From: Sphaerolaimus hirsutus
Taxonomy: Eukaryota > Nematoda > Chromadorea > Monhysterida > Sphaerolaimidae
Assembly: GCA_964036195.1 (NCBI GenBank)
Contig: OZ038453.1
Coordinates: 13,739,206-13,803,205 of the forward strand
Length of the DNA: 64,000 bases
Direction of reading: 5' to 3'
Shown: piece by piece, positions 9,662 to 63,129 of the stretch
How the letters are laid out: every line of letters starts with the position of its first letter
Position numbering within the stretch: position 1 is the first letter of the stretch
Program-made: the position numbers and the translations under genes
The notes under the pieces: generated by a model
Database searches by the model: none
What the model was told of the DNA's origin: nothing
What the model saw: only the letters and a program-made list of their open reading frames with translations

Positions 9662-12600
9662 CAGGAGAAGGTACCCTATTGAGGGGTTACCGATCTGGTG
9701 GAATCAGCATATTAATTGGGGAAAATGAATCCTTTCCTTTAGTTGGAAATGGGAGCTCAAAATTTCAAAGTGAACATCGGCCAAATGCAACCACGGGGGA
9801 GAAATGGAAGCCCAAAGATGCAATAGAATATTTGAAAGCAGCTGGGTACCCCCAGGATGTGTTTCTTCACGCTTGCTACCATACATTGCGTTTGCGTACT
9901 GTGAGTTGTTCTATTTTGCCGGGTTTTTTAAGTACTGAACTTGTTTCAAAGTATTATATATGTCAACGGGATTTGCAGCATAACGACAAATAAAATGTGA
10001 TATTTTCAGTCTCAACAAGTTACAAATACACAATAACGGTTAGAGACATCAACACCTAAACTGACATGTTGAAAGCAGAAACTGATATATCTATACATAA
10101 GCACATCCCGGTCAAGTTAGCAACCCATTTTTTTTTCACTTCGGTAGCTATATCTCGGGCCATGGTGGGGTTATAGAGCTGAAACTCTGTGAATCTATAC
10201 CGTATTTCCTCGAAATACCCCCCCCCCCTTGAAATACCCCCCCTCGTTTGACCCCCCCCCCTGTCGAGACCACTATGAAACAATCACCCCCCCCCCCTCG
10301 AAATACCCCCCCAAATTGAGTGTAAAGAGAACGTACATGACAAATACGGCAGTTTATGTTCTGCGTAGTGCAGAACACACGTTAAAACAATGTCGGAATC
10401 ACGTTAGAACAGTGTTTATACCATCTACGTACTAATATTAGTCTACAGAACCTTATAAATGGCAGTTTTTTCGACGTATGCGTACGTTTCAGACGACAAT
10501 TTCCTACTTGGTTTTCAAAAATTTTCTTGTGAAATAATAACCCCCCCCCTCGAAATACCCCCCCCTCGTTTAACCCCCCCCCCCTCTCGGGACCACTATG
10601 AAACAATCACCCCCCGGGGGGTATTTCGAGGAAATACGGTAGTTGTAACATCCCTCTACTCTGCATCAACGGGGGGAGGCATGGCGACTCACTAGAGGGT
10701 GGGTTGCCCTATATGCAACAATTTTTTGCGGGGTATTCAGTGTCCCAAACGAGTTCACCACCCACTTGATTAGCTACAGGGGCTGTATCTCCAGTTGTGG
10801 GGGTGGACGAAAGCTAAAAAATTTGGGGGTATTGTGGCAGCACCCACCCCTACTATAAATACACCAGTGCAGCCGCTCCCGACGACCCACTACAGTGTGT
10901 GCTGATGTGTATAAAGTTGTTGTTTTTAAAAAAACGACCAAAGTGTCCCAAACAAGTTCACCACCCAAACACATTAAAAAAAGTTTTGAGAACATACCTG
11001 ATATAAAAACTGAATCAGGTTTTAACCCTAGTTCTGCTAATTAGATTTTTTTCCACTGTTTAGCCACCCCCATCATAAATGGCAGACCAAAAATTTCACT
11101 TTGAACCAATTTTTTGTTCCACCCTTTGGTGTGTTGGTTTAGAAAGTTCAGTAGAGGAGGGTGTAAGTAGTGATGGAATGGCGCCATCGCGCTGGCGCCA
11201 TTGGCGCCTGGCGCCATTTTCTCTGGCGCCCTCTTGGCGCTGGCGCCATTTTTGCTGGCGCCAATTTGGCGCCCGGCGCCATTGTTTTTCATGGCGCCAG
11301 AAATGGCGCCAAAATGCCGCGATGAGTGCTGACATTATTCCATATACAAGTACCGTATCGGCTGAGTGACATCATTTTCTTATTTAGCATATTGAACCAT
11401 GTCATTTTTTTGCTTGAATTACAAGTTTGGCTTGCTGTTCATTGTTTTTATTCCACATAAACAGCAACACTATGCCCCCACGCTGAGATTAGCTCCAGAA
11501 TGTTTTCATTTGGCATGGCAAAAAAATGACACTAGTGCATTTACACAAGTTTTGTTACACTGTAGTGTGATAACTTCCATCTATGCTTGCTAGCATGTAA
11601 TAATCTGTGATAATGGTAGTAGCAGATATAACAACTAGTCAATTTCCTTCTATACAAAATACAAAAAATGAAACATCATTCTCAATGCATTCTTATTGTC
11701 TTCTGTCCTATTCTAAACACTACCCTATCTAATTTCATTTTTACATGTCACAAAATTTTCATTTGAAGGTGGTATAAATATGTGGCGGCAACTCAACATA
11801 AAATAGATTTTCTGTACAAATCACCAATTCAATGCTGTCTCATGTCACTTCAGGGTCAATTGTAAATTGTTTATAACCACAAATGACATTTGACATGAAT
11901 GTATTATATTTATCCTTGATTATGATGTTGTTGTGTTTTTATTCATCAGGTAACTGTTATAACATATTTCCCTTAACAAATAAATGCTTCTGTTAGAATA
12001 TACATGCTAAAATGGTGACTTTTATCGTTGGCGCCATTTTGGTGCCCGGCGCCATTGTTTCTGGCGCCCTTTGGCGCCTGGCGCCATTTTTTCAGATGGC
12101 GCCGTGGCGCCATTGGCGCCTGGTGCCATTTTCTCTGGCGCCATCTTGGAGCTGGCACCATTATTTTGAATGGCGCCATGGCGCCATTGGCGCCTGGCGC
12201 CATTTTTCCTGGCGCTTTTCCATCACTAGGTGTAAGCTTCATAGTTACATAAACAACATTAGCGCCAAAATGGCAACATAAGGAAATTTATTTGGGGTGA
12301 ATTCTATGATGTCATAATGATATCATTGCAGGAACAAAATTTTACAGAATTTTCACTTTTTCATTCCACACAAATAAATTTCCTTATGTTGCCATTTTGG
12401 AGGTCATGTTGTTTATGTAACTTTGAACCTTAGACCCTTCTCTACTGAACTTTGTAAACCAACTTTTAAAGTGTGGAACAAAAAATTGGTTTAAAGTGAA
12501 TTTTTAATCTGCCATTTATGATGGGGGTGGCTAAACAGAGGAAAAAATTTAATTAGCTGAACTAAGGTTAAAACTTGATTCAGTTTTTGTCAGGTATGTT

Positions 12601-15600
12601 CTCAAAACTTTTTTTAATGTGTTTGTGTGGTGAACTTGTTTGGGGCACTGACTTGGGTCGTTTTTTTAAAAACAACAACTTTTTACACAGCGGCACAAAC
12701 TGTAGTGGGTCATCGGAACTGCCGCACTGGTGTATAGTAGGGGTGGGTGTTGCCAAGATAGCCCCAAAATTTTAGCTTTCTACCACCCGCACAACTGGAG
12801 ATAGAGCCCCTGTAGTGTAGCTAATCAAGTGGGTGGTGAATAGTGATGTTAAAGGCACCAGGAAAAATGGTACCACACTGCACCGGCACCTTTCCCATCG
12901 CGTGAAAAGGGCGCCTGGCACCCTGGGGCACTGGCTAAAAAATGGCACCGCACTGCACCGGCACTGTGCCATTCTGAAAAAAATGGCACCGGCACCTAAG
13001 GGCACCGGAGGGTTGCCAGTGCTAGCACTGAAAGGCACCGCACCGGGTAAAATTTTGTGTAGTGATATTAAAAGTGCCAGGACCTTGGTGGGGAGCGCCA
13101 AAAGCCCTGGCACTTTTCCAGCCCCCAGCATCAAAATCTATAGCGCCAGGGCAGAATGGCACCATCTGCCATGGCGCTGAGCACTAACGATGGCAAACAG
13201 TCGAAAAAAAAGTATTTAAATTTTTAAGTGTTTTTTCTGAAATGAATTTTCGAATTTTCGAATTTTTCTTCAAAATAATTTTGAATTTCGAATTTAATTT
13301 TTGAATTTCGAATTTTCGAATCTTTTTTGGCAATTTTCGAATTTTTTTGGCTAGTTTTTGAATTTTTTCAAATAATTTTCAAATCTTTTTTGAAAAATAT
13401 TGAATATTAAGCTTTAAACACAGAATTTAGACTGTCTTCATGTTCTGCTCAGTTGTTATAACCTTATTTTAACCATAAATTAGCATTAAAAATGGACGAA
13501 GGAGTTATGCAAACCAGTGTGCTGCTTCATTTAATTCACACATTGATACATTTAATTCGCCAACAGAGTGAAGGCAATAAAAACAACAATTTAAAAGTTG
13601 GCATCAAATAAAATATCAGCAAAAAATACAAAATTGGCATCAAATACCATATTATTTTTTCAGAGTGGAAACTTGGGGGGGGGGTTAAACGAGGGTGGGT
13701 ATTTCGACGGGGTGTATTATTTAGCCAGAAATTTATCGAAATCCCAGTACTAAATTGTTGTTTTTAGGTAACACAGATGTCAACAAATGCAACAAAAACT
13801 GCCATTTATAAGACTCTATATACCGTATTTGCTTGAATAGTACCCCCCTTGAATAATTCCCCCCCTCGAATAATCCCCCCCTGTAAGACTAGTGAGGAAA
13901 TAATAATTCCCCCCCTCGAATAATTCCCCACTTAACGAATTTGCTCAATTTATTGTGCCCAATTTTAACAAAAATGGCACGTTTTTGTGTGAATAAAGCA
14001 GATTTCATCAAATGAGTTGATAGAAACATGGTTGAAAATGTTGACGAAACAATAATTCCCCCCCTCGAATAATTCCCCCCCTCGATTAGTTCCCCCCTCA
14101 AAATAGTCTGACGAAATAATAATCCCCCAGGGGGATTATTCAAGCAAATACGGTACTTATATAAGTACGTAGATGGTACTAAATTAGATGGTACTAACGT
14201 AGATGGTACTAACGCCATTTATAAGACCCTGTTCTAAACAACACAGTCATTGTTTTTGATGTGTGTTCTGTATTTCCCAGATCACAAACTGCATTACGTT
14301 CTCTATACACCAAATTGGGGGGTGGTATTTCGAGGGGGGTTTATAAATGTATAGTGAAAATTTTGAGGGGGTATTTCGAGGGGGGGGGGGGATATTTCGA
14401 GGAAATACAGTATAAAAAACGGATGCGTCGAAGTCCGCCTCTTCCGCCGTGGATGACATTTCAACGTTTTTTTGTTACGTTTCGCTTTTCGATACGCGCC
14501 GAGTATCAATCGTTGATTTATTTAGCACGTTGAACTTAACAGCGTGTTTTGTTGCCTTGAATTCCCTAAAAAATTCGAAAACTATTTTTGAATTTTCGAA
14601 TTTTCGAATTTTCGAATCTTTTGAAAAATAAATCGATTTTTAAGTGTTTTTTTCTAGGGCGAAATAAAAATTCGAAAATTACGAAAAAATTCGAAAATTC
14701 GAAAATGTTTTCGAATTTTCGAATCTTTTTTTGCCATCGTTACTGAGCACCAATAGTGCCACAACAAAATGGCACTTGAAACCAAAATAGTGATGGCACT
14801 TTTTGTGTTTGCGCCAGGCTAGCACCAATACCACGCACTTTCGCAGGTGCCAGGAGTACTCGGCGCCAGGACCAGGACATTTGTTTAATTTTAACAACAT
14901 CGCTTCTTTCTGACACATCGGAATCACTTTTATCCGACTCAGAATCAATCATTGTTTTGTTTAAAATCGCTAGTTTTTATGTTTGTCAAAAGAAAATCAA
15001 CCAAAAAATGGCCGTGGGCGCATGTTCAACGTGAATTTGATTGGGTCACTTTTTGTATGAAAACACATGTCCTGGAATAAACCACATTTCACGCCCTTGA
15101 AACCATGCCGGTGCCTTTCCCGGTGCACTACTTTTTCTGACCGGTGCTAGCACCTAAAGCACCCTCAAAAAAGGGCACCGCACCGCACCGGCACCGTTGC
15201 TATTCTGAAATAAATGGCACCGGCACCGGCAGGGCACCTCTGAAAATTTCGAGGGCACCGCACCAGCACTGGTTGTTGCATATAGGGCGCCCCACCCTGT
15301 AAATATAAATGGCACTTAGTCGCCTCGCCATGCATCCCCCCATTGATGCAGAGTAGAGGGATGTTACAACTAGGTATATATTCACAAAGTTTCAGCTCTA
15401 TAACACCATCATGGCCCGAGATATAGCTTCTGACGTGAAATAAATAAATGGCTAACTTGACTGGGAAGGTGTCTGGTAGCTCCGACTTGTAATCCAAAAA
15501 GCTCTGGTAGTTCTCGAGATATAAACATTAGGTACATCTAAATTTGAACAATTTTGTCAACAGATCCAATGAAAAATGTTGTTGACAAATTGTGAATGTT

Positions 15601-18600: not shown

Positions 18601-21600
18601 GTACATGTGTATTATTTTTGGTGCTAAGTTTAACCCTTGGTGCTTTAAGTCACCTCAGTGCTTTATTCACACCAGCGCTGTTTAGGTGCTTTGTTCACAA
18701 CTGCGCCACTTAGTTACTGCACCAGCATATAAAGGTCGACTGATGTGAGTGTCGCCTTTCGCTAGCTCTTCAGTGACAGGTTGAGCTTGATATTGCGAAA
18801 TGTCAACAATGTCTGCTGTGAAAGGTTCAGCGAAAAATGTTGGTCCTGTGAACCACATTGTTTCGATCATTAGTTGATCAAAAGTACATCCCCGCGACGC
18901 AATGTCAGCTGGATTGTCTTTTGTAGCAACTTTGTAACATAAACTGTATATACACATAAACCCTTCCGTAACATCACTCAATAATCAGTTTTAACATGTG
19001 TTCTGCATTGTAAAGATCACAAACTGCCGTATTTGTCATGTACGTTCCCTTTACACTCAATTTTAGGGGGGGATTTCAAGGGAGGGGGGGTCATTGTCAT
19101 GAATCTGTGTATTCAGCTGTTTTTTGGCTACACGATTCAGAGCGTTTTTACCGCGCTATCTTCCCTCTCACTCCACTTCACCGGCCGCTTGCCGCTGGTG
19201 TGCACTGCACTGGGCCCGGAGGTCCAGGTTATAAATGCGTGTGTAAATTTGAAGGAAACATGTCCGAAGACGGTATTTTTTGCAGAACATGCAGTGAACC
19301 ACTCGGGGTCCACGCTGTACCGTTTCCCGCAGCACGCACAGCGCCTACACTTAGTACAAGCAGCACAGTAATTAGAGCGGTTTGTTAATTAGCAAACTTA
19401 GGGAAAAACAGTTAGTACTTAGTGCCAATACAGAAAGGGGTCCAAGTTGGGTTTGAGAAGAGAGTTTATTTTTTAGGGCAATGGAAGAACACTAGCGGCA
19501 GAGTAGAAGCAAAGTCAATTTTCGTCACAAGTCGAAATATTGGTGAAAAAAACAACAATTTCAGCTACCATAATTGACATGAACTACCATAATTGACATG
19601 AACAAAAAGCTAAAAAAAGGCATAATGTCGGGAATGCACAGAATCACTTAAGCTCTGATGTAAGCACTTAATAAAATCGTAAGGTACAAATACTCATAGA
19701 AGCGTAACTAATTAGACTAATAAAATGTGCGGTAATAATTTAAGAATGGCTAATAGCAACAATTAAAAAGGCTTCATGTGACATGGGGCTTAATGTGCTA
19801 ATTAATAGCTTACTTGGTATGCCAATTATCTACTTCAGTAATTACCTACAAATCCCTACTTAATCTAATATAATCTAGAACAGGTAATAGCGCAGTGCAA
19901 TGCATATTTACAAAAGATGGGAATGGAAGAAATATGGCTAAAGGCTAATACAACATCATGAATTATCATAGGAAATCAAGCTAACAAGTAATTAAACAAT
20001 TAATACAAGCTTACAATCTAATACTAATAAATACGACTAACAAATGCGATTAATTAAGCTCATAGAAATGAAAGACACTGGCGTGAAACAACATGTACAA
20101 TTTTTTCTACATGTCACGTGGGGACTTTGCACGGGGGTTTTGTATTCATAAATTACAGTAGCTAACGGAATGCTCGCGGGCGCAAAATGCTTATCACCCT
20201 CAACTTTGCGACCCACTATTGTGACTATCCGGTTGGCTCGCGCCCGTGAGAAAGGTTTCAGCCCGATGGCCTCGCCCTCCCGAGCGTGATGGAATATTTA
20301 TGCTGGGGCGGCGGAAAATGTATTTTTTGGACTGCGACTTGTCACTTGGGGCATTATCAGAAGCTGTTCCTACCACCCACCGATACTAGATGACGCACGA
20401 CAATCTAGTCAACATGGGGAGGAACTATTTTTGGAATATTTTTGGTATTTTTGGTGAAATTCATTGTTCCTGGCTTCCGGTCGCCACCTACTTATCAGTC
20501 GTCAGTCTCCGCCTCTGCCCAAAGATAAGTAAAGGGTGGAATGTGCATTCAGCCACCCAGAAAGTCACAACAGTGTGCCGACGACTTCAAAGGCGTCCAC
20601 ACGCCGCGCCGTGGCATTTTAAAGTGAAAAATGTGAAATTCCCCTCTCACCTTGGGCCACGTGGAATGTAGTTTATACTTGGGCTAGACATAACTTGGCT
20701 AATTTTACTTAAGTTTAATTGGCGCACATTAAAATAATAAATTAGTGGGGGATAAGGAAACGAAATTGTGCAGAGCACTACAACCACTAAAAACGTGGTA
20801 AACTCGGTCTGCCAGTGTAGCGGCGTCGATCTTGCTGTGCAGTGCTCTGTCGGGGAACTGCGCAGCTCACTGCATGGCCGCGCATGCCGCGCAGGCCCCG
20901 TAGACTACAAAAAGCCGCAAAAATACCTGAGGGGATTTATTTAAATTTAATTTACAAAACACGTGACAGTTTACGTTCCGTGAATTATTATTGCATTTGG
21001 TTGTCTAAAAATTTGTGGGGTGGTGTCTTTCCCATCGTAAAAAACGCTCTTACAGTTATTATTTCATCAGCCAAATTTTAGGGGGTATTTCGAGGGGGGG
21101 TTAATTCACAGGGGGGGTTAATTCGAGGTAATACGGTATCTTTGCCATCGTGCACTATCATGCAATCAGATTATATTCAAAAAGGTTTCATCGAGAAAAT
21201 TTTGTTGAAAAAATTACGGTTGCTTTCACTTTCACAACACACGAATGCACATACCATAAATAGTCCAATAAGTCCCCAGGGGACTTATTTTTTGCCAGGC
21301 TCTTGATTGAGCAGTTATTTCAGGTAGGAAGTTATTTTAAAAAATATACCTATGGTATTTCGAGGAAATAAGGAAATACCTTGAAAAAAGTTCAGTAATT
21401 TTAACAACTCTGTGTCATAGTTAGTGATGTGAAAAGCGCCAGAGTTTTGGCGCGGCGCTTTTCATATTGCGGGCGTCAAGCGCCAATGGCGCCAAACGAT
21501 TTGAGCGCCAAGCGCCAAAAGCGCCATGGCGCTTTTCCAGACCGTAACGCCAATGGCGCCAGAGGACAATGGCGCTAAGCGCCAATAGCGTCAGCACCAA

Positions 21601-24600
21601 AAATTTCTCGTCCGATTTACAATTAGCCATGTACATCAATGTTTAAAGTTACATGGTACGTTTTATATGGATCGAACTGGATGCTCAATACACAAAGCTG
21701 TCCCTCTACTTGATGAATGAAACTGCGTGGAAATTAGTGCAAAAAAATTACTCGCAGTGAACGCAAGTGCCGTATATCCTCAAATTGGGGCAAATTACCT
21801 CAAAAATCGCTTCGAGTTAGATAGCTGCCGATTTGGGAGATATACATACCTAGATACAAAGCTGAGCGGCCCCGGGGATAGATAGATAGCTGGAGCGTTT
21901 GGGGCGGGGGGGGGGGTTACCGTGGGGAAAAATAATTGAGGCGTCCAATTCTAAAAGTCGACAAGTCCAAAATATGAAAATTTGGAGTTAGGCCCGGAAA
22001 CGTCATCTGGGGCTACTTCTGCACATTTTTCATCATTTTCCATAAATTTTTTGACCTCACATGCCCATATGGCAAAGTGCCAAATCTGACATTTTTGGGG
22101 AAAAATGCAAAAAGTTTGGGCAAGAAGTCGACAAGTCCACTTAGTTTTGGGCTAAAAGGCGACAAGTCCATCCTCCGCTTCCTTTTTTATGGGAAAAAAA
22201 CGCAAGAAATGTGATAAGTCCACTATGGAAACCGATTTCTAAAGGGCGACAAGTCCAACTTTTTCCCATAAGGCAGCCTCGGCTTCCCCGGGAACAAAAA
22301 TGTTCTCGCGTGCAAGAAGGCGACAAGTCCAATTCCCTCCCCGAAACAGTTTTGCTCTGACCGAATGGAATTTTATGGACATCCCATTTTTCAAATATAC
22401 GTTGAGATTAGGGGCTGAGAATTTGACACTTTATTGTCAACATATGGAACTTTATGAAAACCATGAGAGAGCCAAATTGGACATGCACCACGGGCCTGGA
22501 ATTGGATCGGAAACTTAAAATGCGATTTACTCAAAATCACATTTTGTGGACTTGTCGACTTTTAGAATTAGACGCCTCAATTGTCATATGATAGATAGAA
22601 TGTTTTTAACGTGTACATTCAGCATGCTATTTAGGTAGTTTAAGTTTCAGTAGGTTACTCTTTTAAAGCAAGTCAAGTTGTGCTATTTATATTAAAATGA
22701 TGAAATTTGGATGTGTGAACCATAATCGTTAGGTGATGGAAAAATTGGATGGAACAAAAAAAACGATCATCTCATATTTTTGATGGCATTTTTGATGCCA
22801 CCTAGCGAAATCGTACACAGATGGTATGGCGCTTTTTTGGCGCTTTTTAAAGTGTGAGCGCGAAGCGCCAATGGCGCCACGGCATTATAGCGCCAAGCGC
22901 CAAAAGCGCCATGGCGCTTTTGGAGGTCTCGGCGTCAAGCGCCAATGGCACCACTGCAAAAAGGCGCCAAGAGCCAAAAGCCCCATGGCGCTTTTTGGTT
23001 TGGCGCTTTTACATCACTAGTCATAGTTGTTAAAACATATTTACATTTACTTGATAAATGGTCCCGTACTGCATAAATATGTTTACAATTCCTCCCGAAA
23101 AAAGTACCGGTACTCACATACTCGTGTACTTTTTGAAAGTAATGAGAGAAACACATAATTTAGGTATGTATATTTCAGAGTAAAAATTGAAAACACACAC
23201 CAATTTTTACATAATTTTGTAAGAAAAACTAACGTTTACGTTTTCTGTGAGTAAAATACCCATTTTTACGTTTTCCCTGGAAAAATACTTATTTTTTACG
23301 TTTTCCCTTGAAAAATGTATTTTACTCACCTTTTATGCCGTGTAAAAGTAAAAATAAAATACTTTACGTTTTCTGTACTCAGGTGTGAGTAAAAAAAATT
23401 TATATTTTACATTTAAGTTTACCTTAAAAAATTCTGTACTTTTAACTACTCTGCTATGTATTGCACAATGCACATCTACCAAATCAAATGCCTCTCACTC
23501 AACAGGAATACATCCCCTGCACCAACATCACCACTGAAATAGTGCACATGGAATATGGGAAGTGTTTTTTAATAAGTTTAGATGACACAGAATACCAAAA
23601 TCAAACAGAAAGTGGAGCGAGTAATTCATTTTTTCTCGTGCTGAAATTAGACCCGCACAAAGCATACTCCAGGGAAAGAGTTCCGTTGGTCGATGGCGTT
23701 CGAATGTGGATCGGATCTAAATGGGAAGCGGGAGATGAGTGGGTTGTAGGGTTGGGAATTTCAATATTTTTAGTTGCTGTTCTTGGTTCGAAAAGATTTC
23801 TGTTCGGTTATCGGTTCTCGGTTTCTCAAAATTCGCGGTTTCGGTTTCAAAATGCACAAAATTACGGTTCTGGATAATAAACTAATTGGGTATTGAAAAA
23901 TGATAATCGTAAATCCGGTAGAAACACAATGATATAGTATAGTAAGCACCAGGGGCCAGATTTTATTATTGCGTAATGTACCCAACCCGAACGTAATGCA
24001 CCCGAAATCGGGCGCTGCCCTACAAATCGTTTACAGTTGCCCTACCGTATTTCTCCGAGTATAATTCCCGGGGCACTATACAAATTTGGGGGCTTTTTCA
24101 AACACTTTGCAAGTGCTGTGCATAGTGCCCGGGCACTATGCAATTCACCAAATGATGCAAGACTTATGTATCAAATACGTTTTTTATCGGATTGTGTATT
24201 GAATACATACCATCGAACCGAGACACTCGACCAGGTGCGCCAGATGCACGCGCACCACTTTTAGGTTCTTTGATCTTATGCAACAGGCGCTAGCATGAGA
24301 AAAATGAGGTGAGGGACTTAGTAATCCACTTTGTTTGCCAAATAATATTTGTGCATTGCACAGTGCCCGGGCACTGTGCATGGAACTTTTTGCAATGTAT
24401 AATGCCCCGGGCACTATGATCGGGGGGAATTATACTCGGAGACATATGGTACACAAAACGTCAGGCCCCCGACATGACAAAACGCAATTCAATTTTATTC
24501 AATTCAATGGTGTTATACAAAATTGACACTTTTCAGCAACCTTTCTTTAAACTTGTATAACATCCGGGTGTTAGGTCAATGGGGAACATGATTTTTTGTT

Positions 24601-48076: not shown

Positions 48077-48121
48077 CACTGTTCCAACTACAAAAAAACC
48101 CAACCCCCACAAAAAACAAAC

Positions 48122-48379: not shown

Positions 48380-51300
48380 CTAATCCCGAAAAATAGAAAA
48401 GCTTAGAATTTTTTATTATCTAAAATAGACTAGAGATGGAAAATAAATTTTTATTAATGACCCCGTTTAAAAAACACCTTGTTTAACAAAATTTCACCAG
48501 CTGATAACCAAAATGGACCACAAATATTTAGATAAAAACGAAACCCACCTTAATAGGTTCCAAACTCAACCTCCCATAGGGAGGGTTGCCCTTGGTCCAC
48601 TTGTAGGCTTGCAGCGTATTTGGCTCGGTGCCAGGGGGGCTCCCATTTGGGTTGGGCCATAGAGCGCGCGGTGCCACTGAAGGGGGCACGGGTGGCAGAA
48701 ATGTGACTCCTGCTGTTTGGAGGAGCTTTTCGGTGTGAGAATAGATTTTATAAAAAAATTTTTTCAGGAATAGTCATGGTTTCGCAACGGAGATGGTGGG
48801 GTCGTTTTCAGGGCGAAGTTTCTTCCATTATAAAAAGCTTACATTCTCAGAATACGCGGGTACCTTCACACCTAAAAAAATGCAAAAATTACACCGTTTA
48901 CGTGAATACCGAACATAACATAAGTTACAAAGTCACCCAAAACACACTCAAAACCCACCCGGCAGCGGTATCCCATACGGGGGTGGCAGGCACAAATACG
49001 GCGGGGGCGGGGCCGGGGGTAACCCCCTCACCCCAACAGGTGGCCCCTGGCCCCCCATGGGGGGTGGCGGGGGTGGCAGGGGGCGCCCAAATGCCATCGA
49101 AGGAGGCAGGCCGAATGGAGGCATCGGCATGTACGGCGGCAGGTAATTGTTGTTGTTGTTGTTTTGCTGGGGAAGGGAAATCGTTGAAGTGTTTTAATTG
49201 ACCAAGGCAATAATTGGGTTCAGCGGTAGTAAAAAGTATCGAGACCGCGGTTGGAAAATCCGAAGTTACACTGAAAAGTTGCGACACTTTTTCTCGTTTG
49301 TCATAATCGGGACAAGATTTTCACCCTACGAGGGCTTCACGTAAAAACCAACACAACGAACCATATCAACTCTTTGCCCCTCGGTAAACTTCCCATTCAA
49401 ATTGCCATTCCCCTCCGCTCTCTCTCTGGGGTGCCCATTGTCACCCCCGGCCGGACCCCCCTGTCGCTGGTGCTGTTGCATAACGGCAGCCAAGCCCAGG
49501 GCCATAGCTTCGGGGGACATTTGCGACGAGGGTCGATTGAGATGGTCCCCCAAATTGAGCACCCCCTGGCTGAGCATGGTGGGCGGGGGCGACTGCAGGT
49601 TGCCGTGCGAACTGGCCGGGCGAGCGAGCGGCGTCGCGGGGCCTGTGGGGAAGATAGGGCTGGTAGATAGGGATGAAAAAAATGTTCCTTTTCAACGACC
49701 CAGTGACAAAAAAACGGTTTCGATGCTTGCGTTTAAAAAAGTTGTTTTTTTTAATTTAAATTTTCTTTTATTTGTTTAAAATGATATTCTACACGACACC
49801 CAAGATAGGGTTGGGACGATATGACTTTTCGATATCGATATTCGATATTTTTTTCTGAAAGTCGATATTCGATATCGATACGATATGGACCCTCGATATT
49901 CGATATCGATATTCGATATGAAAATATGCTCGATATTCGATATCGATATTTCGATATTTTAGTACAGCGGGCATATTGTATTTCCATTTGGTAACAAACA
50001 TGGTTGATAATCTTTTTAAATGGGCCTCAACAGTTGAAATGAGGTAATGAAATAAAAACAGGATGAATCAAATAATATAAGGTGAAAAATTATTAAGCAA
50101 ACACTTCAGGTCATACTTGTGACTAGGGGTGGCGGCTGGCTTTTTACATTTTTAAAAGCTTGGTATTTTAAAATAAACAGCCAAATTTTTGAGCCATGCT
50201 GCCATGCAAAGGTTTGGTGAAATGGTTTCCTTGTGATGCAGTTTGCTGTGTTAATATCATATATTTTGTAAGGATGTGTATACATTACCCTTGATATCCT
50301 ACTTTTGATAGCTCAATGTGAAAATGACATGACATTTATATGATATATTACTTTGTGCATTCATAAGCATGCATGTGTTTGGCTGCAGCGTCCACTTTTG
50401 GTTGGCTTCAGCCATTTTTATGGGATCACAAATACCTCAAAGAATACCAGAATATCGAAAAAATGGTCGATATTCGATATTTTTTCAACATTTTCGATAT
50501 CGATATTCGATATAAAATAATGGTCGATATCCGATATTCGATACGATATATCGTCCCAACCCTAACCCAAGATGTTAGCTATGCATTGCATTGTTTCAAA
50601 TTATTGATATCGTTATTCGATATAAAATGCTCGATATTTTTTCGATAATAACTTTGCGAAGCTACATGCAGGCGCGGTGCTTTTTGTTTATTTTCCCGGG
50701 GTGTAAATACTTGAATTCGTAAAATCATTATCATCTGAAAATGCAGGGTTCCACTTCAACTGTGAATAGGGTGTCAAATTTCCGTTTCCGTTTTCCGTTT
50801 CCACCTTTCCGCAGGAAAATTTTTTACCTTTCCGTTTTCCGTTTTCCGGCAGCCGAAAAATTTTTACCTTTCCGTTTTCCGTTTTCCGGCAGCAGAAAAT
50901 TTTTTACCTTTCCGTTTTCCGTTTTCCGGCAGCTGAAAATTTTTTACCTTTCCGTTTCCGTTTTTCCGGCCCATTTTTCCGTTTTCCGGCTGAAAAATTT
51001 TTACCTTTCCGTTTCCGTTTTACCAGGCCATTTTTCCATTTTCTGGCTCGATTTTCAGTTTTCTGGCTCTTTTCCATTGTTTTTCCAATCTGTATTTATC
51101 TTCAATTGGCTCATCCCATTGTGTTGTTTTTGTCTCTTGGAGCAGCATTGACAACTGGGATTTCAGGGTCAGTGAAACAGGTGCTGTGAACCCAATTGAG
51201 TCATATGCTGACACCAATAATTTATTCAAGTTTTGTCTGGTTGGTGTTGTGATGCTGTCAATTTGCAATTTTGGTGTTGATATTGCCAGCATGTCCATTT

Positions 51301-54300
51301 GGTGATTTTATTTCATGCCCATTACTGCGACAATTTTATTCACCTTTGGACTCCTGTTGTTTTCTGCTATTTCATTCATGACTGATCTGGAGTTTGACAG
51401 CCATTCCCTCATGTTCATAGAACATTGGTTAAATAAAGCTTTGACTTTGTAATATAGTTCTAAAGCTTCAACTTCATTTGTGACACTCATGATGAAGTTA
51501 TCGACGTAAATGTTGTTTATTATCATCGCCAACTGGTTTCGTTCCCCTTCATTTTCTTCATCTTCATTCATGTTGTTTATTGTCACATTTAAATGGTATT
51601 TTATGACTGCTCCCAAAATTGCTGGGCTGCAGACAAGTCCAAACAGTACTCGTTTAAAACAAAGTACTATTAAGTTATTTTCAGTTACTGGTTTTGAGGC
51701 ATCTTTCAGCCAGAAAAATCGTGTGTAGTCTCTAGCAGGTGTGGCAGGTCATGAATCCCCTTGTTGTCTGTTTTGTTGTCACAGATCTCAATTATTCCCT
51801 TTTCTAGTTGGTTGTCCAAAACTTTCCGGTATTGTTCGAATAAGTTTGGATCTTTGTTGAATCTTCTTATCAGTGATTTAAACTGCACCAAGGCTTCTGC
51901 TTTTCCCGTGGCAGGTCACTGATACTCTCTTTATACGGCCAGTCAATATAGTATCGTTTGTTGTTGTTGTTGAATTTTATGCTATTTATTATCATCTCCT
52001 CTGCAATGTTGTCATCAATTGCATAGGGGTCATCAGTGATTTCCACTGCTCCTAGACTGTGAAATTGTCGTAGTGTTTCCTTTCCTATGGCCACTATGGC
52101 TACTTTTTGATAATTTTTTGTTGGTTCAGTTAAGCTTGAACAACAAGTGAAGTTACAGGCATGATCCATAGTTGCAGAATGTACAGCTACCACAATCAAA
52201 GCCAAACAGGCAAACCTGCATGCAGATTTTCCTTCTGCAAATTTGTCTATTACCGTGCTAATTTCACTTTATTTTTTTCCGTTTCCGTGAAAATTTTGCT
52301 TTCCGTTTTCCATTTTCCGGCATTTCATTTTTCCGTTTTCCGGCCGACAATTTTTTTTTACCTTTCCGTTTTCCGTTTTCCGCTGAATGAAATTTTTTTT
52401 ACCTTTCCGTTTTCCGTTTTCCGGCCAACAATTTTTTTTTACCTTTCCGTTTTCCGTTTTCCGTAAAGTGAAAATTTTTTACCTTTCCGTTTTCCGTAGA
52501 AATTTTTTTTTGACACCCTAACTGTGAATCATCCCACGTTTAGAAATTTTTTCCCTATCTTTTTTGAAGAAAAAAAGATGGAAAGAAGCGCATCAACCTA
52601 CCAGAAAAAAGTAACTCACCCCTAAAAACCTCATGATCCCTGGCTCCATCATCACCCCTGCCTCTACCGTAATCCCCTCTCCTCTTACCGTAACCCGACG
52701 AATTAAAGTCCCGCCCACTTTCGCCCATTTCCTCGCTATTATTATCATCACCAGGCTGGTTATCGAACCTCGGCGGGCTAGCGGAATCGATCGAAAGCGT
52801 GTCGAATGCGGGCGCGCCGCGCAAAAGGCGGTACCGATTGCCCAGACGCAACCCGCCGCATAGCTCCGCCTATTTAGGTTGTTGGTTTTGTCGTTATGTT
52901 AGTGGGGTGCTAATAAAGGGCAATTCGAGATCAAAATAAGAGTGAAATGACATTTTGAAGTCGATTAAATCTGATAAATGGAATTATTTTTTAGTTAATG
53001 AAAATACAATGCGGTTCAGGGGACGGTTCTGCAAGTGGAGAAGTAAAATGGCAAATGCGAAGTGATATGGCAAATGCGAAGTGAAATGACAAAATCGAAG
53101 TGAATTGAGAAGTAAAGTGGCAAAGGGGAAGAAAAATTTACCATACTCGACGGACCACAAAGTATGCGCCCAAAATTATTTATGTCTTGGTCGATAACGC
53201 GCGAGCTGGATACTTATGTATGCACTTTCACAAAAAGAAAAATATTTAAAAAAAGAAAAAGGCGGAGTCGGGTACAAACGAGGAATGTTTTTTTCCCGTC
53301 ATGTTTTTATTTTTTTCCTGTAATTATTTTTATTTAATTAATGATGACGTCATGATGGAGTGTTTCCTTCAGAAAAATGCATAGCATGCGGTCCGCCGAG
53401 TATACTTATTCTTATATTTTTTTTACTTCGCTTTTGCAAAATTTACTTGCCATTTCACTTCACATTTGCCATTTTACTTCGCTGTTGCCATTTCACTTAT
53501 GCCACTTATCAATTGGCGGAACTGTCACCAGAAGACACCTCTAACCCAAAAAGACCTTCACTCAAAACCAAAAACGTCAAAATGGCAAATGGTGCCAACC
53601 CTAGGGTGGCAGAATTTACCGTACCGTACCGTACCATACCGCATTTTTGGGAAAATTACGGTACCGTACCGTTTACCGCAATTTTAGAAATTTACCGTAC
53701 CGTACCGCGTACCGCATTTTCCGAAATTTACCGTACCGTACCGCGTACCGCACTCATTTACCGCATTTTACGCGGTAAATTTTACTCAGATTTACCCAAA
53801 ATTTTTCAACATCTTGATGACAATTGATGTGGTGTTCTGCAAATTTTTTGCGCACAAGTGCGCAATATTCACAACATTGTTTTCACTGATTTTCAGCCCT
53901 TTCACATGCTATATTGTTCCCAAATTGCATTCATGCCTTATGGTATATTTTCAGCTATTTTTATACTATATGCCATTATATACCTATTTTTCAACTATTT
54001 AGCAAATTTTCACCCATTTTTACCTATTTTCTCTCTTTTCTTTCTTCTACACCCTGAAAAAACCTATATATTGAGCCCCTGCATTGTGGTAATGTAATTT
54101 TATGTCATCACACTGTTATTTTGTTCTTAAGTCCATTATGAATTGTGTAATTGAATTTGGTGTCAATTTATGAAGAAAAAGTTGTATGTAGTCCGGTATT
54201 GATACATTTTTTGACAATCGGAAATTTACCGTACCGTACTGCGTACCGCACTTTTCAGATTTACCGTACCGTACCATTTACCGCAAAATTGAACATTTAC

Positions 54301-57300
54301 CGTACCGTACCGTTTACCGCAAAATAGAAAATTTACCGTACCGTACGGTTTACCGCAAGGCCGTACCGTCTGCCACCCTTGCCAACCCCCCGCACCTTAA
54401 AATGTGCAAATGGCTGCGCGGTCTGATAAACCAGTCTCAATCTATCCTCGGGTCGAATTTGTTCACCCATGTCCATGTGCCGGCGGCGCCAATCTTCGGA
54501 AGTCGCCAAATTGATGTCCACCACTGTCACGGGGGCGGGGCGCTGAAAAATGTGGTTTTCTTCAGTTTTCAGTGTTTTTCAGCTTCAGTGTGAGGGTGAA
54601 AAAAAACCCCAAAATGGTTGAATAACTATAAGTTGGCGTAGAAAGCAGGCACCTGGTGCCAGTTCCATAAAATGAGAAGTGAGAAGTAAAATGGCAAATG
54701 CGAAGTGAATTGAGAAGAAAATTGGCAAAAGCGAAGTGAAATGGCAAGTGAATTAGCAAAAGCGATAAAATTCACTTCGCATTTGCAATTTTACTTACCC
54801 CTTCTCAATTTCCGGAACTGGCTCCAGTTGTCGGAATCAACACAATTACGATGAATAAGTACAAACCACGACATTACTGTATGTTTCATCAGCATAATAC
54901 ACTATGACAAAGTAATTTCACTCTTATCACACAAGTCCCTAAACAAAACTTTACAAATCCCGACAACCCCCACGAATGACACTTTAGTTCAACCCCCCAA
55001 AAAACCCCAACAAACATTCAAATCAGCTTTAGTCAACTGGTCCCGGACACACTCTGTGAGCCATTGTTTCGGGCGGTCCGTGATAACCACTAAAGGTCGG
55101 GCGGCGCGGGCGGCCACGCGCAGACAACGCTCAACTGCTAGCTGGATGTTGATTGATGTTATTTCTTGAAATGAAAAGAAGTCAGCAGGGGGGTTTAAAT
55201 GGGGTTTACTTGTCGGGATCGTAATGGGTTTTTTTAAAGAATTTTCGGGATTTAGGGATTAGGGTCGCGTGATGCGGATTTCGCACAAAGTTTGAAAATT
55301 TAAAATTTTATTTTTCAAGGACTAATTTTCAAAAAATTATAAAACACTATAATTCCAGAGTACTGGTATAAAGTGCACACTGGGGGGGGGGGTCCATTCA
55401 CGTTGGTCAGTGCAAAAGTGATTTTGAAAATTTGTAAAGTTTTTTGGGAAATTTTATCGGGGTTATAAAATTTTCGGGATCGGTGTCTCGAGATCGGAAT
55501 AAAAGAATACCGAAAATCGGAATTGGGGACCCTACTTGACATTGATGTCGGGAAAAAGGAGCTAAATCGTAAATCCCATCATTCCACTTTCAACACAACA
55601 TTCGTTCAGCAAAAAACCTGCGGCGGGGTGGCATCCCTCAAAGGGCAATCCGTAACATCCAACAATTGCAATTCGGGACATTCCGCAGCCAATCCAGCCA
55701 ATGCGCGGGAAACTGCGGCTGCTGACGAGGCTCGCCCGGCGCCCGCTAGGTACAACTGTAAAAATTTGGATTTTTTTGTTGACTTCTTAATGGGGATACT
55801 TTTAGTTTGGTGGAGGGAAAAGGAAGCAATTGTTCAGGCGGGGCAGGCGAACATTTTTCTTCCACGCGCATGGGCAGTGAGGATGAGAAAAATTTAAGAC
55901 GGCGGGGGCTCAACAACTGAAACTCACTTAAGCATGGATAGACGATTTTCCTAAAACTTTCAACTCTTACAAACTAATCATAACACACATAAACCACAAA
56001 TGACACCATAAATCATGACCAAAAATAACACAACCAAAAAATCTAACCTTTTTCAACAAATGCGTCTGGGCGGCGACAAATGTAATCGAATCGATCACAC
56101 CCCTCTTCACAACACCGTCCAAATTGAGTTCAGCCAAAGATGAGAGATTGGCTAATTTGCGCAGTGCAGGGGCGGAAACGTTGCCGCACCTACGTGGGTA
56201 GGGCTATATTTGCATTTGCAAATTGGGATTGAATTTGAGGAGGGTTTGTAAAGAAACCAAGACGCAGGGGTCTCCTAGGGGGGGGGGGGGCTGGGGGGGG
56301 CTGCCCCCCCCCAAATCGGCCAGCTATCTATCTATCCCGGAGGCCGCTCAGCTATCTATCTATCCCGAGGCAAATTTTTTGGCTACTACCCCCAAAGACC
56401 CCCCCCCCCAAAACGCTCAGCTATCTATCTATCTGGAGTGGTTTTTGAGAAATTTTGCCCAAATTTTCGCACAAAATCACCAATTTTTGCACCTTTTCAT
56501 AGTTTTTCACCTTCAAAATCGTGCTTTCCGGCTATATACATGGTTATATACCTATTTTTAGCCATTTTATACCTACTTTTGGCTACTTTTAACTGATTAT
56601 TAGCGATTTTTTCCCCTTTCTGCCTTCTTAACCTTGAAAAAGCCTATATATTGGGCCCCCGCCAGCCCCCCCCCCAGAAAATTTTTTCACCCAAAATCAC
56701 CTCACCTAGGCAACCCCAATTTGACCAAACCACTGGGCGCCCGTTTAGCCAACTCTGCCAAAAATCCATCCCCCGCTGCAGGGAGCCCATCCAAACACAA
56801 AGACTCCATTTTTGGCAGTCGGGTCAAATGCATCAGACCGTTCAGTGTTATGTGCGTGGCGTCGGTTTTTAGCACTGCTAGAGAGACGGTGCGCAGTTGA
56901 GTGCAGTGTGAACAGAGTTCCTGGGGTTAGAGGGGGTTGATATCAAGGACGTATGCGGGGGGGCGGGGGTCTGCAGCCCCCCTCCGCTGTTCCCAATAGT
57001 TTTTGAGGCACAAAAATTCGAGACAATTTTGCTCCAGAAACTACCGTGTTTGCTTAGGTGTAAAAAGTCATGTACAATGCAAAAACACACATGTGAATTT
57101 TTTCTCTTAGGGATAGGGTTGGCCGATGTTTTTTTTAAACGTTTTTTTTTTAAAACATGACGTCCGAAATGTTGTTTTTTTTTAAAAAACATCGACCGAA
57201 ATTTTTAGTACTATGCACTAGGTATTTTGCAAAATTTTTGCGCGCAAGCGCGCAATTTCACACACAAATTGACATTGGTGGTTGTTTTCATTGGTTTTGT

Positions 57301-60300
57301 GGCATTTTTAGTATCAAAGTATCCATTTATATATGCTACCATGGGTTAATAAGCCGTCATATGTTGCTGTAGTATGTAATATTGAGGTAATGTGCTTCCA
57401 TGTACCTCCACAGTGTGTAACTTCACTCCCAAAGTAACAACCTCGTTTTATAACATTGTTTGATCACTATTCCGTGCGAAACTTTACCTGAAGTCACAAA
57501 CATTCGACTATAAGGCGATATACGAACGATATGTCGACAAAAAATGCATATTTTTGACACAAATCACCACTTATAATGCTATCCCATGGCTCCACAGACA
57601 TTATATGGTCATATATAACATCACAGAGTACTGCCACTGTCTGATATACCTATATATGTTGACACAAGGTTATATCTGGGAGCTTTTAAAAAAAACGTTT
57701 TTTATTAAAAAACATCGAGTTAAAAAAAACGTTTTTTTCCAACCCTACTTAGGGATTTGATATTTATTTCTCATGGCTTGATATATTTTACACTTTGAAA
57801 AGTATTTTTCAGGGCCCGCGGGACATTTTCGATGATCGAGATAGGTTTAACTAGAATCACACAAAATCGCACCGAAATCAAGATCAGACAACCAAACTCT
57901 CCCCCCAAAAAACAAACCGCCAGTGCCTGATTAGTCAAGCATTCAAACCCGCTCAAATGTATAGTCCTCATCAAAGGGCTCCTTCTAGCCACGGAAACGA
58001 GTGCCTCATTACTCAGCCTTGAGCAACATTCCAATTCCAGACGTTTCAAAGGTGGGCAATGTGCCAACGCGTGTCCGGCCATGTAACTCGCATCCGCTAG
58101 GAGTTCGCGCATGTTGGGGCAGTTGGTGAAGATCTGGGGGGGTTAATGTTGTTCTTGTTAAAAAAAACTTTTTGTTTTTTTGGAGTGTTAATATGCGAAT
58201 GCGAATGCAATATCGAGGCACTAGGGTAAAGAACGATCCGAGCTAGGTTCAAACCGATCGAGGCTTGCGATTCAAACTAGACTAAATTTTTTTACAATTT
58301 CATATTGTATTTTAACTTGTAGGGTTCGTTAAAATAGAATTTTTAAGCCGCCCTATTTTGGCTAGGTATCTACATATATATCTAGCGATTTTTCCCCTTT
58401 TTCCTTCTAAAGCTTGAAAAACCTTACATATTGAACACCAGTGAACTACCTAGGGTTGGCCGATGTTTTTTTTTAAACGTTTAAAAAAAAAAAACACATG
58501 ACGTCCGAAATGTTTTTTTTTAAAAAAAAACATCGGCCGAAATTTTTAGTACTAAGCACTAGGTATTTTGCAAATTTTTTGCGCGCAAGCGCGCAATTTC
58601 ACACACAAATTGACATTGGTGGTTGTTTTCATTGGTTTTGTGGCCTTTTTATATCAAAGTATCCATTTCTATGTGCTACCATGGGTTAATAAGCCGTCAT
58701 ATGTTGCTGTAGTAAATAATATTGAGGTAATGTGCTTCCATGTACCTCCACAGTGTGTAACTTCACTCTCAAAGTAACAACCTCCCTTTATAACCTTGTT
58801 TGATCACTATTCCGTGCCAAACTTTACCTGAAGTCACGAACATTCGACTATAAGGCGATATACGAACGATATGTCGACAAAAAATGGATATTTTTGACAC
58901 AAATCACCACTTATAATGCTATCCCATGGCTCCACAGACATTATATGGTCATATATAACATCACAGAGTATTGCCACTGTCTGATATACCTATATATGTT
59001 GACACAAGGTCATATCTGGGAGGTTTTAAAAAAAACGTTTTTTATTAAAAAAAACGTTGTTTTTTTTAAAAAAACATCGAGTTAAAAAAAACGTTTTTTT
59101 CCAACCCTAGAAGTACCCCTCCAAAAACAACAAGTATACGTATGATTAGTGATGGAATGGCGCCATTAGAGGGCGCCAAAGTACGCCGCCCTTCACTTCT
59201 TTTGTTACTTGTGCACAGGGTAAACTTGTGCACCGGTACAGGGTCGTTTAAACCTCAAATCAAGGTAACCGACGATTTCTTTTCCGCGAATGCAGTAAAG
59301 CTCCAACAATTCGACCCAACAAATCACTCTCAAACACACACGAAACAAAACGAACATTGGCTAAATCCGTATCGCGCAACTTATGTCTCACATTGAACAG
59401 AACTTCCAATTTGGTCAGGTTGGCACAGTGCCCAGTGATGAAAGCGACTAAAGAGCGCCAGCGCCCTTGGGATGGCTGCTCCACTGCGCGCAGCATGTCC
59501 ACATTGAGCGAGTTTATCTATATTCGATGAATTATGGTGGGATGTGGATTATGACTTAGTTGAAATAAAAAAAAAGCGCAGAAGATATATTTTTATATAA
59601 ATGCATGTGTGATCTCTGTGAAACACCTATGTGATGGGTCAAGGACATTAAAGACATGTTTACCCAAACATGCTGAGGTAAAAACTGTGCTCCAAACCGA
59701 ACCTGCAAAAAAACCTGCTCACCACTTTTGCGAGCCACGGTCTACAAGAGAGGAAAAACCAAACCCAATAAAATTTGTGCAAATTTGAATGTCCAGAATT
59801 ATTCAAAAAGACATTTGAAACGTATCCAAAATCGTTTCCAAAAAAGGGAAGGCAAAATGACAATCGCCACAGGATTTTCCCAGCTTTAACTACCACAACC
59901 ATCACATTTTCGAGCATGCTCCACGCTCCAAAGCGTTGACTTACAACATCAACACAAGATGGACAACAAAAAATTGGGAGGTGTACAGCAGAGGTTCGGG
60001 TCGTTTTGGCAGGCGACACGACGGCCCCAGTTGTTCCTGACCAGAGACTGAAGAAGTTTTCTCCGGTCAAGAAAACCTGCGGCTGACAGTCGCACTGCAA
60101 AAGATTGTGCTCGGTTTTCAAACACAGGGCACGTCTCATGCCACTGAGCCAACTGAACACTTAACATTGATGCTGTTAAGTGTCGATAAATTGATATCTT
60201 TTTTCACCCGGTCACTGAATTCAGCGAGATTACCCCACCGACAGCATTATGACAATGTACGTTGCCCTGCACATGGCATTCGACAATGTACGTTGCCCCG

Positions 60301-62291: not shown

Positions 62292-62501
62292 CACGATGGA
62301 ATAATCACCGGCTAAATATCCCGGCTCAGCTGTTTTTGTCAAATCCCGCTGTTTTACAATCTGTGCAAAAATTTCAGATGCTCTAATTCACTTCAAATAT
62401 CCGCCAACTCTTACATCTACGAAATAAGCTTCACTCGTGTGTAGGGATGGCCAGCGCTTTAAAATAACCCCGCTTTTTTAAAAAAAGCGCAAGGGTCCCA
62501 G

Positions 62502-63129
62502 TAGGGTTGGCCGATGTTTTTTTTTAAACGTTTTTTATTTAAAAAAAACGTGTTTTTTAAAAAAAAACATGACGTCCGAAATGTTTTTTTTTAAAAAAAA
62601 CATCGACCGAAATTTTTAGTACTAAGCACTAGGTATTTTGCAAAATTTTTGCGCGCAAGCGCGCAATTTCACACACAAATTGACATTGGTGGTTGTTTTC
62701 ATTGGTTTTGTGGCATTTTTAGTATCAAAGTATCCATTTATATATGTTACCATGGGTTAATAAGCCATCATATGTCGGTGTAGTATATAATATTGAGGTA
62801 ATTTGCTTCCATGTACCTCCACAGTGTGTAACTAACAACCTCCTTTTATAACCTTGTTTCATCACTATTCCGTGCCAAACTTTACCTGAAGTCACGAACA
62901 TTTGACTATAAGGCAATATACGAACGTATCGACAAAAAATGGATATTTTTGACACAAATCACCACTTATAATGCTATCCCATGGCTCAACAGCCATTATA
63001 TGGTCATATATAACATCACAGGGTATTGCCACTGTCTGATATACCTATATATGTTGACACAAGGTCATATCTCGGAGCTTTAAAAAAAAACGTTTTTTAT
63101 TTTAAAAAAACGTTTTTTTTCCAACCCTA
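62502..63129. mobile_element. hAT-like element, TAGGGTTGGCCGATG family (copy 3)
   Basis: Perfect duplication GGTCCCAG (62494-62501, 63130-63137). Inserted in a related but different element whose left end TAGGGATGGCCAGCGC is at about 62443. Confidence 0.88.

Follow-up and report, generated by a model that had tools for sequence, protein, structure and literature searches.

Private motif arrays lie in direct orientation at the two ends of most hAT-like element families in a 64-kb window of the Sphaerolaimus hirsutus genome

In this study, we examined a stretch of 64,000 nucleotides from the nematode Sphaerolaimus hirsutus (contig OZ038453.1, positions 13,739,206 to 13,803,205; called the window below) and the short elements contained in it, which, judged by their tips and target sites, are best read as non-autonomous hAT transposons resembling Ac. 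Just inside the tips of most of these elements lie two arrays of a short motif peculiar to the family, and we found that the left array recurs on the right in the same, direct orientation, clearly so in eight of the twelve families and marginally in three more. Since the tips themselves are inverted, a directional motif points inward at one end of the element and outward at the other. An earlier note on this DNA had described the array of the second half as reversed. The alignments did not bear this out: for 19 of the 20 elements, and for 11 of the 12 families (sign test, p=0.006), it is the direct comparison of the two ends that gives the higher similarity, and the inverted arrangement could be kept only for a single element, A5. 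Taken as a whole, the data probably reflect hAT elements that carry family-specific binding-site arrays of opposite polarity at their two ends, the arrays being able to change together, probably by repair. All counts refer to this one window and to 12 families, and the names of elements (A1, B1a etc.) were coined for this analysis.

Results

Twenty non-autonomous elements (A1, A2, A3, A4, A5, A7, B1a-c, B2a-c, B3, B4a-c, B5, B10, Ca and Cb) are flanked by 8-bp target-site duplications (TSDs), of which 18 are perfect and two, those of A4 and B4b, have one mismatch; these are the numbers given in the earlier note. The elements are partly nested, B1a and B2a lying inside A4 and B2b in its flank. 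The right flank of A4 is split by B2b and reads CCAC+TGAC after removal of B2b and one copy of its TSD, which leaves one mismatch to CTACTGAC. In a mechanical scan for pairs of inverted 10-bp tips that begin with YA, differ at no more than one base and lie 100-3000 bp apart (simple sequence excluded), perfect TSDs were found in 18 pairs at 8 bp, in none at 7, 9 or 10 bp and in five at 6 bp, while ten dinucleotide shuffles gave in total none at 8 bp, four at 6 bp and three at 7 bp. The 18 matches include the element F, which stands outside the twenty, and miss A4, B1c and B4b. A chance origin of the 8-bp duplications is ruled out by this comparison (18 versus 0), and their length, on which the earlier note had made its claim depend, stands.

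Elements of the hAT superfamily have short inverted tips beginning with YA-G. The tip types TAGGG, CAGGG, TAGTGATG and TAGCATTG seen here agree with this pattern; the exceptions are A5 (TAACG), family C (CATAGG) and, on its right side, B1c (AAGGG). The tips fall into groups, with TAGTGATG in A1-A4 and TAACGATG and TAGCATTG near it, TAGGG in B1-B5 with CAGGG (B10) near it, and CATAGG in C; within an element they match in inverted orientation over 10-18 of the first 20 bases. Among the TSDs of 23 elements (the twenty together with F, E1 and E2), T as the second base and A as the seventh account for 26 of 46 positions (p=2.6e-4), although some sites do not fit; this preference, nTnnnnAn, is what we take to be the target consensus of Ac-type hAT elements. 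Short subterminal repeats within about 200 bp, a further hAT feature, are present in 14 of the 17 elements measured. The hAT-like identity proposed in the earlier note is thus supported by the 8-bp TSDs, the tips and the target-site preference.

The two ends of each element were compared by local alignment in direct and inverted orientation, using either standard segments (the outer 16-300 bp) or slightly longer ones. The direct score was at least 1.5-fold the inverted score in eight families (A1/A2, A3, A4, A7, B1, B2, B3 and B10), with direct scores of 73-187 for standard segments. For comparison, 400 random segment pairs from outside the elements had medians of 19 in both orientations and 95th percentiles of 25 (direct) and 28 (inverted); their maxima of 225 and 198 presumably come from other repeats, and direct exceeded inverted in 45.5% of them. 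Among 358 left/right pairs drawn across families the medians were 19 and the maxima 43 direct and 65 inverted. Outside the twenty, D1 (16286-18357) scored 51 direct versus 25 inverted. The 100 occurrences of TTCCG in B2a-c all share one strand, and TACCG in B1 lies on one strand in 83 of 88 places, this being the same strand in both halves, while several motifs, GGCGCC and TTCGAA among them, are palindromic and have no direction of their own. Inverted halves were ruled out for the set by local alignment with shuffles, by ungapped 40-mers and by these strand counts. In A1, A2, A3, A4, A7 and B3 the best 40-mer shared between left and right (31-38 of 40 positions) is closer than the best direct repeat within either array, so that a block seems to have been copied between the ends; in B1a, B1c, B2a, B2b and B2c repeats within an array are as close or closer, and B1b ties.

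Motif density is 20-90 per kb in the first 100 bp from the tips and falls to nearly nothing in most cores. A comparison of 12 motifs with 21 elements (the twenty and F) is close to diagonal. Off the diagonal the largest figure is that of GGCGCC in A3, 6.7 per kb, and in the DNA outside the elements densities are 0-1.3 per kb. Within the outer 300 bp the own motif is enriched in most families, and the top words of B4 and B5 are A/T runs. The reach of the arrays was measured in 17 elements, with B5, Ca and Cb left out. In 14 of them the arrays end 144-263 bp inside the left tip and 109-244 bp inside the right one, and no more than a single motif was counted in the rest of each element; in the three B4 copies they extend only 31-77 bp. 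Dense private arrays were found in nine of the twelve families (A1/A2, A3, A4, A5, A7, B1, B2, B3 and B10); the claim of the earlier note that each family has its own array is good for these nine and does not extend to the other three, which are considered below. AAACGG or its complement CCGTTT occurs 82 times in the window; 57 of these copies lie in B2 ends, all on one strand at both ends (the A4 tally includes the nested B2a). CpG occurs in the motifs used for eight of the twelve families (A1, A3, A4, A5, B1, B2, B3 and B4), and likewise in the hexamer of Ac and in one version of the motif of the Herves element; the observed/expected CpG ratio of the window is 0.93.

Kinship between families was found beneath different arrays. 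B4 and B5 have about 465 bp of core in common at 77-79% identity, a stretch of 79-92 bp links B6 to both of them (80-85% identity), and a block of 47-56 bp in B1 is common to B4 and B5 (82-87% identity); a 25-bp piece of this block occurs eight times in the window within three mismatches, as against none in 100 shuffles. Over this common core the end motifs differ, being AAACGTTTT in B4, CAGG-containing repeats in B5, AGCGCTTT (by eye) in B6 and TACCG in B1. The common core rules out, for B1, B4, B5 and B6, the view that all families are unrelated, and tips are shared as well; among the cores of A1, A3 and A4 (that of A4 being 34462-34970 only) no match above the cut was found in any pairing. 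The motifs GGCGCC, AAGCGCC and GGCACCG of the A group look like variants of one another, and it is this likeness and the tips that speak for a kinship of A1-A4, of which the cores give no sign; those of A1 and A2 align weakly (75 bp, 75%). Weak matches of A1 to B4 and B5 cover 55-85 bp at 73-78%, and the cross-family core matches A5-A7, A2-A5 and A7-F look like other repeats nested in the cores. A quasi-palindromic block, GCGCGCAAGCGCGC, was seen at 29723, 34192 (minus), 44586, 46158, 57235, 58576, 62646 and 63203, in B1, B4, B5, B6 and the E1 region, and is possibly an inherited internal piece of an autonomous ancestor.

Within a family, the two arrays of a copy appear to have changed together in some cases. 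The variant TTACCTTTCCG is absent from both ends of B2a (left/right counts 0/0) and present at both ends of B2b (4/4) and B2c (5/4), and the arrays of B2a are 85% identical to each other and 74-82% identical to those of B2b/B2c. Such variants common to both ends of one subfamily lend support to the process expanding end motifs that the earlier note had put forward. In A1/A2 the two arrays of one copy score 120-126 and same-side arrays across copies 125-152. In B1, B4 and B2b/B2c, however, an array scores higher against its same-side counterpart in another copy than against the opposite array of its own copy, which indicates that exchange between the ends is occasional. Divergence of motif, spacer and core was 9.6, 25.7 and 51.6% for A1-A2 (the core being barely alignable), 5.9, 15.5 and 23.0% for B1b-B1c and 5.0, 9.7 and 21.8% for B1a-B1c; in these three of five pairs motif sites are significantly less diverged than cores, and in two (A1-A2 and B1b-B1c) significantly less than spacers. 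Because the alignment of repeats favours matches, we lean little on this conservation.

Foreign DNA was found between arrays in the B2 family. B2b holds a captured piece of BEL/Pao pol (36148-37350) that is 81% identical to window positions 2745-3950 in reverse, and B2c holds the same piece with about 200 bp missing, identity to these positions being 80-82% in the two copies. Their TSDs differ, so the element moved after the capture. No similarity was detected between the short core of B2a and the B2b/B2c cores or the BEL/Pao element, and the arrays are common to all three.

Discussion

Judged from the sequence, the best reading of these families is that they were served by many transposases with different subterminal specificities. 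Each array would offer a set of subterminal binding sites to the transposase of its family, which would recognize them through its BED zinc finger, and a single directional motif, inward at one end and outward at the other, would suffice to make the two ends unlike each other. Recognition of the motif would restrict each transposase to its own elements, the tips and sometimes the cores being shared. Changes in the motif would spread to both ends, probably through conversion or gap repair between the direct arrays, and the same repair might insert foreign DNA between them, as in B2b and B2c. It is a more doubtful proposition, which we put forward only tentatively, that this amounts to a polarity rule, by which families repeatedly grew arrays of private motifs and kept them direct, one motif encoding left versus right over shared tips, with motif, array and finger turning over together so that each family obtained its own lock while the catalytic tips stayed unchanged.

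Comparisons with known systems show both likenesses and differences. Ac/Ds elements have 8-bp TSDs, 11-bp tips C/TAGGGATGAAA and AAACGG repeats within the terminal 200 bp that are bound by the transposase (PMC3260210). The elements described here are like them in the 8-bp TSD, in tips starting C/TAGGG and in repeats at both ends, the B2 arrays being rich in the very same hexamer, and filler DNA is present in Ds2 and Ds-l4 (PMC3260210). They differ in that their repeats are dense and family-specific, perhaps also in that these are direct between the ends, and in that the tips diverge after the first bases, and they are not known to be active; the Ac tips C/TAGGGATGAAA were found in none of the twenty, B5 (TAGGGAT(G/T)) matching the first 7-8 bases. 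Hermes from the housefly has its sites in antisense at the left end (STR2-7) and in sense at the right (STR1-5), and its activity is largely or wholly lost when a transposon is made symmetric, with two left ends (LE/LE) or two right ends (RE/RE) (PMC10368747). Both systems have short sites crowded near the tips and unlike ends, which in Hermes are important for activity, and in both the site direction is opposite at the two ends, if counted from the tips. That sense and antisense are counted from each tip is suggested by the legend and the numbering in that paper; a count along a single strand would instead make Hermes inverted, and the parallel would be lost. Hermes is unlike the present elements in having a 4-bp site and in being autonomous, and no tandem array is reported in the parts of PMC10368747 covered. 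For Kat1, repeat polarity is reported to differ between the ends (PMC4763223), but the part used does not state how direction was counted, and we do not use it as support. The reach of the arrays resembles the end lengths required in cis by hAT elements, namely 200/150 bp in Tol2, at least 200 in Ac, about 220 in Hermes and about 100 in Tag1 (PMC10368747).

Herves from Anopheles gambiae has one motif, CG/AATTCAT, repeated at both ends and sufficient for transposase binding, and its transposase binds a probe of four direct motif copies (PMC3143072); it differs in having several motif copies rather than dense arrays, and in its three 100-bp tandem repeats, described at the left end only. In Aedes aegypti, 10 of 12 families of Mutator-like elements (MULEs) with long terminal inverted repeats (TIRs) carry short subterminal tandem repeats (PMC5225508). 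They are similar to our families in that many families in one genome have such repeats, of 9-15 bp, and derivatives with heterogeneous cores, but they belong to another superfamily, their TSDs are 8-9 bp, and the repeats of Muta1 and Muta5 lie in inverted TIRs of 145-151 bp and are hence inverted. Foldback elements (Tetris, sea-urchin and Drosophila) likewise have repeat arrays near the ends and a variable middle (PMC4079207), but with long inverted repeats and TSDs of 8-10 bp, whereas here the ends are direct in 19 of 20 elements.

Several observations weigh against the interpretation that we favour. B4, B5 and C have weak arrays or none, the own motif of B4 and B5 reaching at most 5 per kb, and in these three families the direct excess is marginal. 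A5 is inverted rather than direct, and outside the twenty the standard segments of F (24 direct versus 25 inverted), E1 (23 versus 28) and E2 (35 versus 40) lean the other way. The best ungapped 40-mer of B10 has 29 matches direct and 30 inverted, so that its direct signal rests on gapped alignment. A1/A2, with a palindromic motif, are direct too, so that orientation may stem from how the ends were copied. Motif sites are no better conserved than the core in B1a-B1b (motif, spacer and core 5.6, 8.5 and 7.9%; motif versus core p=0.56) and B2b-B2c (3.8, 7.9 and 3.2%; p=0.67). No RNase H-like or hAT dimerisation domain of a transposase was detected in the 10 open reading frames (ORFs) scanned against Pfam among the 41 in the window of at least 120 amino acids. 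From the literature, RE-like sites in the first 50 bp of one end of an LE/LE Hermes gave no rescue, and mutation of the putative inner left-end sites left about 70% of the activity, while scrambling of that inner region left no or little mobility (PMC10368747); Ac reportedly needs no more than three hexamers (PMC3260210), fewer than are found in these arrays.

It is quite possible, if somewhat short of probable, that the direct orientation is instead a trace of origin, left by tip-array-tip elements that were split by filler in gap repair or by an end that was copied through strand annealing. The BEL/Pao piece between the direct arrays of B2b and B2c, with cores showing no detected similarity to that of B2a, is consistent with such an origin, as are the left-right 40-mers that surpass the repeats within arrays in six elements and the direct arrangement of the palindromic motif in A1/A2. 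Filler DNA is known from Ds elements (PMC3260210), and its capture through template switching has been described for animal hATs (PMC8277862), although the single-copy cases in that paper fit breaks inside elements better than excision gaps. A trace of origin would leave unexplained why the arrays stop at 109-263 bp across families with different motifs and why motif sites are the least diverged in some pairs; moreover, the higher scores of same-side arrays across copies in B1, B4 and B2b/B2c speak against constant exchange, and in A7 an inverted repeat of the right array (33) is closer than the left-right direct match (31).

We consider it improbable that the arrays are neutral satellite growth inside old elements. 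Their tandem units of about 32-40 bp and the faster divergence of array spacers than of the core in B2b-B2c (7.9 versus 3.2%) would agree with this, but arrays are present in complete copies with perfect TSDs, and they cover much the same distance whichever end or family is considered (109-263 bp in 14 of the 17 elements measured, none of the 14 having more than a single motif elsewhere). Even less likely is that the motifs bind a host factor, such as a repressor or a DNA-bending protein, rather than a transposase: for Hermes, a cellular factor has been proposed in connection with sequences more than 50 bp inward (PMC10368747), but it would be surprising if a single host protein recognized a different site from family to family. 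Foldback elements or MULEs with arrays inside long inverted repeats, finally, can hardly account for the data. The 8-9 bp TSDs, subterminal tandem repeats and heterogeneous cores of the Aedes MULEs (PMC5225508) and the tandem repeats in the TIRs of the foldback Tetris (PMC4079207) recall the present elements, and in A3 and B3 the ends also align to some extent when inverted (69-73% over 110-113 bp). The scan, however, gave no TSDs of 9 or 10 bp, and the tips match in inverted orientation only over their first bases, beyond which direct exceeds inverted similarity in 19 of 20 elements; on the missing 9-bp TSDs, the short tip match and the direct ends, to which A5 is the exception, this origin was rejected.

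The earlier note knew of no description of private arrays as a general rule in one genome, which was too strong. A private subterminal motif for each hAT element is already known in principle from the authors of the Herves study, according to whom hAT transposases bind differing sequences that secure specificity (PMC3143072), and the Aedes MULEs provide many families in one genome with subterminal tandem repeats, which are inverted where described in detail (PMC5225508). No title or abstract listed in searches of the open-access literature deals with subterminal arrays that are direct in a range of hAT families. Neither this arrangement, seen here in many families, nor the turnover of motifs over shared tips and cores was found in that literature, and both are apparently new. 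Work on Hermes indicates that unlike ends matter, but not how their unlikeness is encoded in general. If direct arrays are such a code, it could be read from whatever genome is at hand and tested by turning a single array around; families alike in tips or cores and unlike in arrays would be a natural series for changes in the binding specificity of transposases, and repair between direct repeats would offer a concrete route to short elements and to the capture of foreign DNA.

Description of the elements

Scores are given here as direct versus inverted, for long segments unless stated otherwise. A1 (11168..12228; tips TAGTGATGGAA, TSD GGTGTAAG) has GGCGCC arrays that reach 144 bp on the left and 200 bp on the right (126 versus 41), and A2 (24925..26117; TSD ATGTATAG; 120 versus 46) is the second copy of this family. 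The tips TAGTGATGT are found in both A3 (21422..23019; TSD GTCATAGT, motif AAGCGCC; 123 versus 51) and A4 (33390..35830; TSD CTACTGAC / CCACTGAC, motif GGCACCG), the host of B1a and B2a, for which standard segments score 77 versus 25. A5 (13185..14742; tips TAACGATGGC, TSD CTGAGCAC, motif TTCGAA) is the sole exception among the twenty, its standard segments scoring higher inverted (61) than direct (53), and A7 (27102..28100; tips TAGCATTGAAAAAA, TSD TTCACCAC, motif AATCTC) gives 81 versus 36 with standard segments.

The B1 family has TACCG as its motif, in 36-bp units in B1a (33598..34453, minus strand; tips TAGGGTGGCAG, TSD CCGGCTAA; 128 versus 22), which lies in the opposite orientation to B1b (46816..48050, plus strand; TSD GCCGCCCC; 91 versus 20) and B1c (53602..54380, plus strand; TSD GCCAACCC, right tip AAGGG; 135 versus 27). 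B2a (35012..35667; tips TAGGGTGTCAA, TSD CTGGCAAC, motif TTCCG; 126 versus 20) contains in its arrays CCGTTT, the reverse complement of the AAACGG of Ac; the copies with the captured piece are B2b (35835..37753; TSD ACTACCAC; 125 versus 24) and B2c (50767..52520; TSD ACTGTGAA; 194 versus 21). B3 (49806..50564; tips TAGGGTTGGGACGATAT, TSD ACCCAAGA, motif CGATATT) scores 77 versus 52 and B10 (32041..33058; tips CAGGGTTGG, TSD CTCACAAG, motif AAAATAA) 74 versus 46.

All copies of B4, B5 and B6 lie on the plus strand. B4a (57114..57747; tips TAGGGTTGG, TSD CTTAGGGA; 39 versus 30) has weak AAACGTTTT-type repeats, B4b (58451..59109) has the TSD GAACTACC / GAAGTACC with one mismatch and standard segments scoring 36 versus 32, and B4c (62502..63129; TSD GGTCCCAG; 50 versus 42) is inserted in the visible left end of B6; a fourth copy, B4d (46014..46647), has lost its right end and is not counted among the twenty. 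B5 (44470..45101; tips TAGGGATGGCC / TAGGGATTGCC, TSD CCCGTTAT) scores 25 versus 23, with z values of 2.5 and 0.9 for standard segments. Of B6 the left end (TAGGGATGGCCAGCGC) is seen at 62442..62501, with AGCGCTTT as its end motif by eye, and the element resumes at about 63130 after B4c with a core block like that of B4/B5. In family C, Ca (37918..38083; tips CATAGGCGGCG, TSD CTCGGAGG) has a 17-bp repeat in both halves that is not an array, and Cb (45196..45556; TSD ATAAGCAT; 28 versus 26) is a second copy. F (41316..43877; tips CAGGCTGTC, TSD GTTTGGAG) has a sparse TACCACG motif, and neither direct nor inverted arrays are clear in it. Searches with patterns were made in two collections, neither of them of animals: five patterns of 17-28 bases had no match among viral contigs except two for the 17-base pattern, which are probably due to chance, and one 26-base pattern had none among bacterial and archaeal genomes.

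Neighbouring sequences

A BEL/Pao long terminal repeat (LTR) retrotransposon occupies 1-9255. Its LTRs (1-251 and 9005-9255) are 99.2% identical, so that it is probably young. A Pao peptidase and an integrase zinc-binding domain score above the Pfam cut-off and the reverse transcriptase just below it, and its first ORF gave four protein matches at 21-29% identity among 7987 candidates scored, of which the two named ones are both from flies. Two tRNA-like sequences are present in the window, and the direct repeats 15788-15936 and 16095-16241, which are 96% identical, each have a tRNA match.

Other repeats lie between and within the elements. A further family, recognized by eye from tips resembling CAGAGTTG/CATAGTTG and repeats resembling TTTACGTTTTCC, is present at 16286-18357 (D1), 31670-33180, 42732-43230 and 23022-23454; D1 has an 8-bp TSD with one mismatch, and the other copies have no clear TSD by eye. 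E1 (26933-30043) and E2 (45927-48076) have tips CA(A/G)NGACGTA(T/G)CCAGG and 8-bp TSDs with one mismatch. Long hairpin repeats are found at 10640-12840, where A1 interrupts them, and at 28101-29508 next to A7, the latter with an inverted match of 82% over 1.4 kb. Repeats of the type CCGTATTT(C/G)CT(C/T)GAA with C runs, seen by eye and often inside other elements, lie at 10220-10640, 13830-14140, 24690-24780, 25190-25290 and 26200-26300, and a palindromic region of 349 bp with TGTCATGACA-like repeats is located within B10 (32323-32671). At the right edge, 63257-64000 contains CGGGAT arrays with three TAGGGTTCAAACGGG starts that run to the end of the window and probably represent another array family cut by it.

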